Virus record (IMG/VR): IMGVR_UViG_3300015360_000107
Span: 1-36,360 of that record
Origin: a virus
Length of the DNA stretch: 36,360 nucleotides
Reading direction: 5' to 3' (one strand)
Shown here: in pieces, positions 22,523 to 26,567 of the stretch
Numbering within the stretch: the stretch's first letter is position 1
Layout of the letters: every line of letters starts with the position of its first letter
Notes under the pieces: model-generated
What the model was told of the DNA's origin: nothing
Seen by the model: only the letters and a program-made list of their open reading frames with translations
Database searches by the model: none
Made by a program: the position numbers and the translations under genes

Positions 22523-22543
22523 ACGGGCTGGCCAGCAGGGAAC

Positions 22544-22581
22544 AACAGGCCACCAAGGGACTCCCTCTGGTGGCCTGTTTT
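22544..22581 (+). terminator. strong rho-independent terminator
   Basis: AACAGGCCACCA (22,544-22,555) pairs perfectly with TGGTGGCCTGTT (22,568-22,579). The inner AGGG/CCCT continues the stem, and four T residues follow (22,578-22,581). It ends transcription of the solitary gene before the amidoligase region. Confidence 0.9.
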
Positions 22582-22587
22582 GCGCCC

Positions 22588-22607
22588 GGACGTGCAGGGA
22601 CGTGCAG
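22588..22607. repeat. 10-nt tandem duplicate
   Basis: GGACGTGCAG occurs twice in tandem (22,588-22,597 and 22,598-22,607); a partial third copy (GGACGTGCGG) begins near 22,642. It could be a binding-site cluster or slippage. Confidence 0.6.
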
Positions 22608-22862
22608 GGCGGTCGATCGAAATGGGGTCCACTGCTACTAGCGGACGTGCGGGGAGTTCGGGGCCCTGCAAGCCCTAAATGCAAAAGGGAAAATGGGGGG
22701 GTGTATCTTCAAAAATATAAAATCTATATATACATATATACACATATATTACTATTTAAGGGAGCCACCCTGGCTTGCTTCGCTTCACGCCATGCAGGGC
22801 CCCGACCTACCCCATATCCACTAGGCACTGAGTACCCCGCATTTCGATCAACCGCCCCGCAC

Positions 22863-22890
22863 TTGCATTCTACCACCCTCGCATTATATT
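22863..22890 (+). promoter_or_regulatory. candidate sigma70-type promoter for amidoligase operon
   Basis: TTGCAT (22,863-22,868), 16-nt spacer, TATATT (22,885-22,890; 5 of 6 to consensus). The transcript would begin about 35 nt before the start codon at 22,933. Confidence 0.5.
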
Positions 22891-22932
22891 CCCCTATTCG
22901 CGCGTCCAATCCTCATAACGGAGAGCGTCACT

Positions 22933-24279
22933 TTGCCAGCAAGATCACTCCCCATTCAGCACTGCTACTCTTGTAGCAGTCAGCTCAACACAACAACGTG
23001 CGTGTCGGTCTTTCACGAGAACCGATATGTACAAGTATGCCCAAACTATGCAGGGCGTGATTGTTCCTTCGTATGCCGCTCGTGCACAGGGCGGTTCCTG
23101 CGAATAGATCAATCCAATACCATTCGCGATCATTGTCGGGCGTGCAGTCTACTCCAAGTTGAGTGTATCGGCTGTCTTCAAATTATGGGAGCGGCCGAGG
23201 TAATAAATGGACGGTGCGCCTCTTGTGTCGAAGACCGTGATAATTATATCCGCGAATCCAATTCCGTCGCCGAACTGCGCGAGCTTGCACTTGTACGCAA
23301 CCAAGAACGTCAACGACAGTACGAACGCCAGCAGCGTGAGCATTATTTTCTGGGGTTGCCAATAATCGGCGATTATCATTCCTCTCTCAGAAAGGAAGCC
23401 ACATGGCGGTTAGCGTCAGCATGGACGCGCGCCAACAATTCCCGATTTATCGGCGTTGAGCTCGAAATCGAATCACGCGACATTTCCATATATTGCACCG
23501 ACGATTGTAATGAAGATTGTGACAACGACTGTGAAGGAACTCACGGACGCGACGAACCAGACGACAACGAAGCATGCAAACGATTTGCGCTTGCGGCGCT
23601 ACAAGCCGCTCACACACCCACATGCACAAAACGCAAGTTGTTCGCTGAACATGATGGTAGCCTCACAGCCGGCTTCGAATTAATCACTCAGCCTATGGGA
23701 CTGGATGACCAAACCACACTCTGGACGGCAGTACTACAACCATCTGTCTTGCGTGGCTGTTACAGTCACCAGACGTCAACTTGCGGACTACATGTCCATA
23801 TCAGCCGCGCGGGACTCGCTGAACTCACGATCTCCAAGGCTATCGTCGCGATCAATGATAAGTCGTGGACCGATCTAGTCCATTGCGTCGCGCGTCGCGG
23901 CTCTAACGGCTACTCTGAACGAAAGTCAAACTTGGCGTCGTGCAAGCGTGTCGCGAATATGTCCACAGCACGATACGAAATGATTAACACGCTCAATCGT
24001 GCAACTATCGAATTTCGAATTTTTCGAGGTACCTTAAAGCTAGAATCGCTGCTAGCTGCCATCGAATTTTCGAATGCCGTAATCAATTGGGCTGCCCAAA
24101 CCAGCGCGCGAGCGCTAGAAGTGCGTCACTTTCTCGCTTGGCTGGCAATGCCAGCCAATGCGCACGATACAAAAAACTTGCGCAGCATGCTCGCCACTCG
24201 TGAACCCACGCAATACAAGCACTTGATTTCAGCAAAATCCTTGCTGAAATCAACCACCACGACCGACACGGAGAACTAA
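22933..24279 (+). CDS. amidoligase-like protein with N-terminal multi-CxxC zinc-binding region
   Basis: A 448-residue protein starting with TTG after a good site (GGAGAG, 6 nt). Residues 11-98 hold CxxC pairs C11/C14, C48/C51, C68/C71, C78/C81 and C95/C98 plus C23, C36 and C44, consistent with two or three zinc sites. A charged helix follows. Residues 171-385 match the GS-like amidoligase (Amidoligase_2) pattern: RFIGVELEIES with E176/E178/E180, EHDGSL at 239-244, GFELITQP at 247-254, CGLHVHIS at 284-291, TIEFRIFRGTL at 358-368. These acidic, His and Arg positions should bind ATP-Mg and carboxylate. A Cys/Asp-rich insert lies at 188-215. The family forms amide bonds from a carboxylate and an amine. 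The substrate is unknown. Confidence 0.82.
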   Translation: MPARSLPIQHCYSCSSQLNTTTCVSVFHENRYVQVCPNYAGRDCSFVCRSCTGRFLRIDQSNTIRDHCRACSLLQVECIGCLQIMGAAEVINGRCASCVEDRDNYIRESNSVAELRELALVRNQERQRQYERQQREHYFLGLPIIGDYHSSLRKEATWRLASAWTRANNSRFIGVELEIESRDISIYCTDDCNEDCDNDCEGTHGRDEPDDNEACKRFALAALQAAHTPTCTKRKLFAEHDGSLTAGFELITQPMGLDDQTTLWTAVLQPSVLRGCYSHQTSTCGLHVHISRAGLAELTISKAIVAINDKSWTDLVHCVARRGSNGYSERKSNLASCKRVANMSTARYEMINTLNRATIEFRIFRGTLKLESLLAAIEFSNAVINWAAQTSARALEVRHFLAWLAMPANAHDTKNLRSMLATREPTQYKHLISAKSLLKSTTTTDTEN

Positions 24280-24282
24280 ATC

Positions 24283-25155
24283 ATGTGCTTAATCCTACAC
24301 CAACGCAAAGGATACACACTACCGCGCACGGAACTGATAACAATCTGCACCAAGAATTCAGACGGGTTCGGCCTGATGTATTCCCATCGCGGCCAACTAT
24401 TTACGTTAAGAATGGTAGGCACGCTCTCTGAAACGCTCGATGCTTACTACAAATACGCGGCTGGCCGTGACTGCTTGCTACATTGGCGCATGAGAACACA
24501 CGGCAACGTAAATATTCAAAATGCTCACCCGTTCGTACTAGGTGAGTCAGAAGTTGCCCTAATGCACAACGGGGTACTGGACTGTGGCACGCCGCACGAA
24601 GATATGTCAGACTCGTATCACACAGCCGAGTACCTCTTTAAGCCGATAGCCGAAAGCACACCTGACTTACTTTTCCAGCCTCATTTTATAGAGGTAATGG
24701 GCGGGTTGATCGGGACAGCGAACAAAATTGTCGTCATGGACCGTAAGGGACAAGTCGCAATCATAAACCGTTCAGGTGGAGTCATGCATGATGGTTGCTG
24801 GTTTAGCAACACGTATGCATGGAACGCACCCGCACACCTCACACCAAAACAATTAAATTGGCACCACTACTACCAACGCGCCGATTGGGCTTCCCCAATC
24901 TCACCACCGATAGTACAGCTTCCGTCACCACCGATAGTGCAACTTCCACCTGCAACAACAATGGAATCGCTTCATAAGGCTGTCGAAAAGTCACAGGAAG
25001 CCGGAGCGTTAGAGTGGGCCACTCGCAATCCGGCAACAGCGCGTCAACTTATCAACGAATGGTTTGCGGTAGACTCTCATACGCTGTCAGCCGAGCGAGT
25101 GGCCGAACTCTTGTATGATCTCGGCACTTCGATTCTCACAGAGGTTGAAACCTAA
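24283..25155 (+). CDS. class II glutamine amidotransferase
   Basis: A 290-residue Ntn-type glutaminase. Cys2, exposed after Met removal, is the nucleophile (MCLILHQ). Other class II marks are NSDGFGLMY at 25-33, HWRMRTHGNVN at 67-77, AHPF at 81-84, LMHNGVLD at 93-100 and a SDSYHTAEYL stretch at 109-118. It would release ammonia from glutamine. The C-terminal third is not part of the usual domain: it has a duplicated SPPIVQLP linker (residues 208-222) and a helical end. It begins 3 nt after the amidoligase stop, with GGAGAA ahead, so the two should be made together, matching the amidoligase plus GATase pairs described by Iyer and colleagues in phages and bacteria. Confidence 0.88.
   Translation: MCLILHQRKGYTLPRTELITICTKNSDGFGLMYSHRGQLFTLRMVGTLSETLDAYYKYAAGRDCLLHWRMRTHGNVNIQNAHPFVLGESEVALMHNGVLDCGTPHEDMSDSYHTAEYLFKPIAESTPDLLFQPHFIEVMGGLIGTANKIVVMDRKGQVAIINRSGGVMHDGCWFSNTYAWNAPAHLTPKQLNWHHYYQRADWASPISPPIVQLPSPPIVQLPPATTMESLHKAVEKSQEAGALEWATRNPATARQLINEWFAVDSHTLSAERVAELLYDLGTSILTEVET
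24901..24948 (+). repeat. 24-nt tandem duplication inside the amidotransferase gene
   Basis: Two adjacent 24-nt units (24,901-24,924 and 24,925-24,948), nearly identical and in frame, encode the doubled SPPIVQLP linker after the catalytic domain. This indicates a recent duplication or linker expansion. Confidence 0.8.
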
Positions 25156-25159
25156 CCGC

Positions 25160-25369
25160 ATGCAATTTCCACCCTCTTTATTACTTCTCTGGGCGTCCTT
25201 TAAAGGCGCTCAGAGGAAGTACGATACTAGCGTATCCCTTTCGGTGTCCGATCCAAGACACTTAGAAGTGGTGACACTAGAATATCTCACCTCTCGCGAT
25301 CTGTGGAACACACATCATAGAGCATTCGAAGCTGAGTGCTCTAACACCAGCAACCAGAGAATCTTCTAA
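25160..25369 (+). CDS. small hypothetical protein in amidoligase operon
   Basis: With ATG at 25,160 (4 nt after the amidotransferase stop) it encodes 69 residues: a hydrophobic opening (MQFPPSLLLLWASFKGAQRK), then mixed polar sequence (TLEYLTSRDLWNTHHRAFEA). The opening is too short and irregular for a confident membrane helix. No Shine-Dalgarno is seen, so translation may be coupled to the gene before. Its stop overlaps the next start by one base (TAATG). Function unknown; position makes an accessory role in the amidoligase system possible. Confidence 0.55.
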   Translation: MQFPPSLLLLWASFKGAQRKYDTSVSLSVSDPRHLEVVTLEYLTSRDLWNTHHRAFEAECSNTSNQRIF

Positions 25370-25590
25370 TGGACACACCAACGTCGCGTAAGGTATACAC
25401 AATTTCATTCACGGAAGAAGAGCGAGCTCTGATGGTACTAGCAACTGCTACGGGCTTACACATGGCCGTTGGGCAGACTACGCCAGCAGTCAATGTCTTG
25501 GTAGCGCTGCGTGACCTACTCAAGCACATGTCACTCGATGAATTTGAGAGGTTCCGGTATAAGCTTTCCCAGTTTGTGCCTGTTCCTTGA
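25369..25590 (+). CDS. small hypothetical protein in amidoligase operon
   Basis: A 73-residue protein: a strand-like start (SRKVYTISFTEEERALMVLA) followed by helices (VNVLVALRDLLKHMSLDEFE). The layout resembles a small DNA- or protein-binding helical domain, but no ribbon-helix-helix or helix-turn-helix motif is firm. It is coupled to the previous gene by a one-base overlap. Its TGA lies inside the -35 box of the next candidate promoter. A carrier or substrate peptide for the ligase is only a speculation. Confidence 0.65.
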   Translation: MDTPTSRKVYTISFTEEERALMVLATATGLHMAVGQTTPAVNVLVALRDLLKHMSLDEFERFRYKLSQFVPVP

Positions 25591-25615
25591 CAATGCCGTA
25601 CCCTCTCTTCATATT
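25587..25615 (+). promoter_or_regulatory. candidate sigma70-type promoter
   Basis: Perfect TTGACA (25,587-25,592), 17-nt spacer and CATATT (25,610-25,615; 4 of 6). It lies 32 nt before the ATG of the small repeat gene at 25,648. Confidence 0.5.
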
Positions 25616-25647
25616 GTCCCGTATCCTTCATTATGGAGCGGGACAGT

Positions 25648-25767
25648 ATGGAAAAGATCACAGTTAACACGTTGCGAGCGGACAAGTTGAGAGCTGCTGT
25701 GGCTCGCGCGCGCAGGTTGGCGTTGCGAGCGGACAAGTTGAAAGCTGAAACGCGGGTTGCTGCTTGA
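25648..25767 (+). CDS. 39-residue helical protein with internal 17-residue repeat
   Basis: ATG at 25,648 has GGGAC 5 nt upstream; an in-frame ATG at 25,633 lacks one. The product (MEKITVNTLRADKLRAAVAR, then ARRLALRADKLKAETRVAA) is almost all Leu, Ala, Arg and Lys. It holds two copies of LRADKL(R/K)A spaced by 17 residues, giving an amphipathic basic helix. Such a peptide might bind nucleic acid or a membrane. The underlying DNA repeat is 27 nt with one mismatch. It is too short for domain assignment, but the ribosome site, promoter and repeat support it. Confidence 0.5.
   Translation: MEKITVNTLRADKLRAAVARARRLALRADKLKAETRVAA
25670..25747 (+). repeat. 27-nt direct repeat, 51-nt period
   Basis: Copies at 25,670-25,696 and 25,721-25,747, beginning CGTTGCGAGCGGACAAGTTG, differ by one base and are spaced 51 nt, an exact number of codons (17). 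They encode the internal repeat of the small helical protein. Confidence 0.8.
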
Positions 25768-26431: not shown

Positions 26432-26438
26432 TCCACCG

Positions 26439-26469
26439 ATGAGGGGCATAGGGTATCTATGCCCCTCAT
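26439..26469 (+). terminator. hairpin, probable terminator
   Basis: ATGAGGGGCATA (26,439-26,450) pairs perfectly with TATGCCCCTCAT (26,458-26,469) around a 7-nt loop, 8 nt after the stop of the preceding gene. Only a loose T-rich stretch (TGTAATTCTT) follows. It could also shield the transcript end or separate the tRNA. Confidence 0.65.
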
Positions 26470-26493
26470 TGTAATTCTTCCACAGACCGGCAA

Positions 26494-26567
26494 GCGCTAG
26501 TAGCTCAGGTGGATAGAGCGGCAGCCTTCTAAGCTGCGGGTCGGGGGTTCGAGTCCCTCCTAGCGCA
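26494..26567 (+). tRNA. tRNA-Arg (anticodon TCT)
   Basis: A complete cloverleaf. Acceptor GCGCTAG (26,494-26,500) pairs with CTAGCGC (26,560-26,566). The D-arm contains GCTCAGGTGGATAGAGC. The anticodon arm is GCAGC-CTTCTAA-GCTGC with TCT in the loop, and the T-arm has GGTTCGAGTCC. The discriminator is A and CCA is not encoded. TCT reads AGA (and some AGG), codons common in these moderately AT-rich phage genes and often rare in GC-rich hosts, so it may relieve a codon mismatch. Confidence 0.93.

Follow-up and report, generated by a model that had tools for sequence, protein, structure and literature searches.

A 36.4-kb stretch of viral DNA (the window, i.e., the whole of the stretch that was analyzed) carries two adjacent genes, which are predicted to encode an amidoligase of the glutamine synthetase (GS) fold with an intact active site (22933-24279) and an Ntn glutaminase that has every expected catalytic residue (24283-25155). 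The amidoligase-glutaminase pair is a real, selected module, and the copy in the window is an intact, divergent new example of a published pair type, not a new system. The minus strand of the window contains the terminase, portal, and head protein genes, and the plus strand contains exonuclease and Sak4-like replication/recombination genes; the pair is located early in this plus-strand (early/replication) half. A previous sequence-only reading described two adjacent genes with a 3-nt gap, and both open reading frames were found in that arrangement, each with its own Shine-Dalgarno-like sequence (Table 1). Directly before the pair lies a 410-nt stretch with no assigned gene (22523-22932), which contains a TA-rich repeat (about 22725-22760) and duplicated short motifs and is likely regulatory. 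Elsewhere in the window, a tRNA-Arg (TCT) is found at 26494-26567, with a strong terminator-like hairpin ahead of it (26437-26471). Megablast of the whole phage against annotated phages found no close relative.

Table 1. Features of the amidoligase-glutaminase pair in the window.
Feature	Position	Strand	Details
Amidoligase gene	22933..24279	+	448 aa; TTG start; RBS GGAGAG at 22920-22925, 7 nt upstream
N-terminal Cys-rich module	22963..23226	+	Amidoligase residues 11-98
GS-fold catalytic domain (predicted)	23422..24222	+	Amidoligase residues 164-430
Cys/Asp-rich insertion in catalytic domain	23488..23580	+	Amidoligase residues 186-216, begins CTDDCNEDCDNDCEGTH; from alignment of relatives
Glutaminase RBS (GGAGA)	24270-24274		8 nt upstream of ATG; overlaps amidoligase 3' end
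Class II (Ntn) glutamine amidotransferase/glutaminase gene	24283..25155	+	290 aa; ATG start
Ntn glutaminase domain (predicted)	24283..24921	+	Glutaminase residues 1-213; nucleophile C2, R69-x2-T72-H-G74, N96-G97, D110
C-terminal helical extension	24952..25149	+	Glutaminase residues 224-289; confident helices in model

The amidoligase scores 24.9 bits with the PF12224 (Amidoligase_2) profile, whose cut-off is 22 (E-value 2.3e-5), and is borderline by Pfam alone, as a six-frame PF12224 search of the genome at E<=0.001 did not list it. In PHROGs, it matches phrog_16683 (7e-29) and phrog_2443, annotated as "amidoligase enzyme" (4e-9). Its catalytic domain contains E176/E178, D241, S243, E249, H287, H289, R322, E360, and R362. 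Across 61 amidoligases, E178, D241, S243, G247, E249, G285, H287, H289, R322, E360, and R362 are invariant or nearly so, in agreement with the acidic, His, and Arg motifs that the sequence-only reading had picked out. A structure model built with a 61-sequence alignment has pLDDT above 85 in most 10-residue blocks beyond residue 140, and is weaker at residues 180-210, 330-350, and the C-terminus. By VIA-align, this model superimposes on yeast GS (Z 12.8, rmsd 3.8, 194 aligned) and on YbdK (Z 12.7, rmsd 4.0, 221 aligned), and the Foldseek list also includes Dop and PafA. The best structural matches within a viral model library are phage amidoligases, one Marvin-type protein among them, and the matches include an uncultured-phage protein named "LIM domain containing protein"; a sequence search for a solved structure of an amidoligase relative found none. 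An unrelated fold at residues 171-385 would have spoken against an amidoligase, and residues 164-430 are instead modeled with the GS/YbdK fold. Judged from the model, the likeness to YbdK is one of fold only; the TIGR02050 (YbdK-type) profile gives an E-value of 3e-4 and 20.3 bits, which does not reach its cut-off of 176.4.

The N-terminus of the amidoligase contains a Cys-rich module, which the sequence-only reading had overlooked. In the window protein, its CxxC pairs are C11/C14, C48/C51, C68/C71, C78/C81, and C95/C98, and among the 61 amidoligases C48 is conserved in 59, C51 in 58, C95 in 59, and C98 in 60. All 53 scorable amidoligase-centered representatives have at least two CxxC motifs N-terminally, and the mean over all 78 scorable representatives is 2.5, compared with 0.34 in shuffles; Firmicutes relatives mostly have six or seven. 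The Pfam LIM model is over its cut-off in two of these Firmicutes relatives (L170 and L191). It is the Cys pattern that suggests zinc binding by this module, since the module has low pLDDT in the amidoligase model. A conserved module of this Cys-rich, LIM-like kind would more typically contact proteins or nucleic acids. A second Cys cluster, the Asp-rich insertion within the catalytic domain (C-x3-C-x3-C-x3-C; CTDDCNEDCDNDC), has no counterpart in the relatives inspected in the alignment and is private to the window protein, where it is a possible extra metal site.

The translation of the downstream gene contains C2, NSDGFG (residues 25-30), HWRMRTHG (67-74), and MHNG (94-97), which are the class II motifs named in the sequence-only reading. 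In 60 glutaminases, C2, N25, D27, G28, G30, H67, R69, T72, G74, H95-N96-G97, and D110 are invariant. Because the active-site residues are invariant in 61 amidoligase and 60 glutaminase relatives, the motifs of the two proteins are not due to chance. The Pfam GATase_4 and GATase_6 models score the glutaminase at 17.1 and 17.7 bits, under cut-offs of 23 and 27, which are sensitivity thresholds rather than chemical requirements. By sequence, the glutaminase is a divergent class II member. It matches phrog_25883 (7e-9), and a five-sequence glutaminase profile matches GlmS structures with an E-value of 1.3e-9. Its model (mean pLDDT 88) resembles EgtC (Z 13.4) and GlmS (Z 12.4), with PurF also matched. 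A Pro-rich linker with pLDDT under 50 leads to the C-terminal extension, which is a possible docking part. Profile, fold, and active-site evidence therefore agrees with the earlier description of the pair as a GS-like amidoligase and a class II glutamine amidotransferase.

Relatives of both proteins in viral contigs came from alignment-based scans, as single-sequence scans with either protein as query found nothing. The amidoligase alignment yielded 540 confirmed relatives. For the best 80 of these, the glutaminase is directly downstream on the same strand in 79, and the sole exception is an amidoligase at a contig end (L056). Conversely, 75 of 80 glutaminase-centered loci contain the ligase, 74 of them within 100 nt, and adjacent pairs over all loci number 230. 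Neither loss of the pair nor decay of active residues, which had been named as grounds for doubt, was found in relatives; both are kept. The identities of the two proteins covary over 109 pairs (Spearman 0.37, compared with a maximum of 0.13 in 500 permutations), which supports co-inheritance and is no proof of contact, because shared ancestry contributes.

Apart from the two genes, no conserved neighbor was found when all neighbors were clustered, the commonest families being present in 11 of 104 ligase groups. The small downstream genes (25,160-25,767), which the sequence-only reading had put forward as accessory proteins or substrates, have no relatives close to the pair at any of 160 loci and are not supported in either role. 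Gamma-glutamyl cyclotransferase (PF06094, PF13772) was found in 0 of 30 records (the window and 29 related records), some of which are fragments, while the window itself may be incomplete; PF06094 was positive in the control phage StenR_269. No match was obtained for PF14395 (COOH-NH2_lig, a second carboxylate-amine ligase), for which the controls were equally silent, and a PHROGs scan of 28 window proteins gave no ATP-grasp match. With no other conserved neighbor and no cyclotransferase, two genes appear to be sufficient, which suggests that the two purified proteins would suffice to test the chemistry. A known defense system was also considered as the identity of the pair and rejected, as PADLOC, which covers known anti-phage defense proteins, gave no match for it.

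The pair is not restricted to phages: in a scan of bacterial and archaeal genomes, it proved to be widespread in Ruminococcaceae and relatives, and to be present in Polynucleobacter as well. Among 80 genome loci, relaxase/MobC is present in 28, an integrase or resolvase in 60, and either in 64. In Ruminococcaceae and relatives (L170-L245), a LIM-like amidoligase and glutaminase are found in mobile elements, often with DUF960 nearby. DUF960, found in Firmicutes, is present in 55 of the 80 genome loci; it was considered as a partner, but since it is missing from viral loci, it is probably part of the element type. Several copies occur in Ruminococcus flavefaciens genomes, with FD-1 matches on at least four contigs. 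A 63-aa, partly hydrophobic protein is encoded directly 3' of the amidoligase in 23 of the 80 genome loci (e.g., L213 1712-1903), and other genome loci have DUF4314 in its place. The Polynucleobacter locus (L166 4741-16749) contains an integrase, the pair, a relaxase, and a T4SS coupling protein, and is an apparent integrative conjugative element. In a quick tree with long branches and many weak forks, the window is grouped within a set of 53 rows, of which 51 are viral and 2 genomic, and the Polynucleobacter ligase is placed among viral rows. This arrangement suggests that exchange has taken place between phages and conjugative-type elements.

The occurrence of the pair in phages and in relaxase/integrase elements alike points to an action on the host cell or competing elements. 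This distribution also bears on whether the pair modifies the phage's own DNA or virion. The location of the genes in the window's early/replication half and a Cys module that could bind nucleic acid are in keeping with such a role, but relaxase/integrase elements, which produce no virion, also carry the pair, and no conserved base-modification partner genes adjoin it, so we regard this role as highly improbable. Virion modification in particular is unlikely as a general role, because elements without a virion carry the pair.

We consider the chances about even that the pair is a two-subunit glutamine-dependent amidoligase, in which the glutaminase feeds ammonia to the ligase and the ligase, with its Cys module holding the target, converts a carboxylate of that target into an amide. 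This model is based on computed folds, active sites, linkage, and occurrence in diverse phages and conjugative-type elements; in the literature found, no member of the pair has a shown substrate, complex, or activity. As in its enzyme family, the glutaminase would split glutamine at Cys2, and the ammonia released may be channeled to the ligase. The ligase could then activate a carboxylate with ATP to form an acyl-phosphate, as in glutamine synthetase, and reaction of this intermediate with ammonia would produce an amide, i.e., carboxyl amidation of the target. Less surely, the Cys module might bind zinc and hold a macromolecular target (a host protein, a peptide, or a cell-wall precursor), and, early in infection or once transfer has taken place, the change might give the resident mobile element an advantage over its host or rivals.

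The modeled resemblances to YbdK and EgtC would equally allow ligation of another amine and gamma-glutamyl hydrolysis. A gamma-glutamyl transfer/hydrolysis cycle is the main chemical rival, given the high rank of YbdK and EgtC among the structural matches. Here, a YbdK-like ligase would protect an amine with a glutamyl or another acyl group, and an EgtC-like Ntn enzyme would remove this group or process the product, resulting in a small peptide-like metabolite. The presence of YbdK and EgtC among the top solved-structure matches and the TIGR02050 match are what this chemistry would predict; however, glutamine synthetase and GlmS fit these models about as well and no third biosynthetic gene is conserved, making it unlikely. 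Auxiliary nitrogen metabolism, in which the pair would raise host amino-acid synthesis during infection, has been proposed for Phage-ZRK32 with its amidoligase and glutaminase genes (PMC10945688), but that proposal rests on growth stimulation by the whole phage. Hosts generally have their own glutamine synthetase, and neither the Cys module nor conjugative-type carriage calls for a nitrogen role, which is improbable as an explanation of the pair.

For the two-subunit amidoligase, the main uncertainty is the substrate, which may be a peptidoglycan precursor or else a macromolecule, such as a protein, that the Cys module recruits. Cell-wall modification for superinfection exclusion, whereby the pair would amidate peptidoglycan precursors or add peptide bonds to them and keep out rival phages and elements, is compatible with the two-subunit model and differs only in naming the substrate; we rate it as possible, though leaning toward doubtful. 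Carriage by phages and conjugative-type elements fits entry exclusion, but the cyclotransferase of the full cassettes was not found in the window and its relatives, and the type of Cys module present would be more expected at protein or nucleic-acid contacts. This role is the published prediction for phiEco32/RIO-1/LUZ24-like cassettes (PMC5498523, PMC10580990, PMC11318856), and peptidoglycan amidation by a ligase and a glutaminase does exist (MurT-GatD; PMC3267633), although the literature found contains no experimental test of the prediction. Alternatively, the pair could be a general host-takeover or competitor-exclusion module of phages and conjugative elements, in which the metal-binding domain would recruit a single conserved host protein or nucleic acid for amidation of its carboxylates. 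This proposal is doubtful; if true, host-macromolecule carboxyl amidation would be the first such system to be described in prokaryotic mobile elements. For pulling out the substrate, the conserved Cys module offers a handle.

In the literature found, phage amidoligase genes have a predicted function only, resting on a 2009 prediction by Iyer and colleagues, which reportedly lies behind the statements on superinfection and surface modification in that literature. MurT is a relative of Mur ligases and GatD is a different type of glutaminase, with folds unlike those of the window pair. Peptidoglycan amidation by MurT-GatD likewise combines an ATP-using ligase and a glutaminase subunit encoded by adjacent genes (PMC3267633, PMC5871853). 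The adjacent pair itself is already annotated in OM43 phages (PMC10580990) and, in annotated phage records, in Marvin-type mycobacteriophages and MEP401/402, and it is found inside larger cassettes in LUZ24-like (PMC3890496) and RIO-1-like phages (PMC5498523). Thus, the enzyme pair of the sequence-only reading stands, while its suggestion of a possible new system does not. The "peptidoglycan modification cassette" of phiEco32, LUZ24-like (UFV-P2, tf), and RIO-1 phages combines, in the early region, an Amidoligase_2 protein with a class II glutaminase (PMC3890496, PMC5498523), and adds a COOH-NH2_lig second ligase, an ATP-grasp enzyme, and a gamma-glutamyl cyclotransferase, the last of which was not found in the window. 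As in the window, no cyclotransferase was found in the genomes of Marvin, MEP401, MW202733, and AR1086-1.

Mycobacteriophage Marvin (cluster S) has the same gene order (gp105-gp106) and a ligase with Cys motifs in its N-terminus, but is very divergent (28% identity over ligase residues 236-411 and 27% for the glutaminase), has a 79-nt gap within the pair, and carries it near the right genome end. Marvin gp106 (L003 7124-8023) also has Cys-rich ribbon-like motifs in the glutaminase C-terminus. In the Methylophilales (OM43) phages MEP401/402 and in MW202733, an uncultured phage from Manatee Spring to which the window comes closest within the annotated phage collection (35-37%), the amidoligase gene directly precedes the glutaminase gene close to where the early region starts; these belong to other phage lineages than the window, and the MEP401 ligase has a longer N-terminus. 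The conserved N-terminal CxxC...CxxC module and carriage by relaxase/integrase elements are new as far as could be checked, although Iyer 2009 or Mageeney 2012 might already mention them; as far as could be checked, so is the minimal two-gene form with nothing else conserved nearby. The Cys module, the minimal form, and conjugative-type carriage are the parts that merit follow-up.
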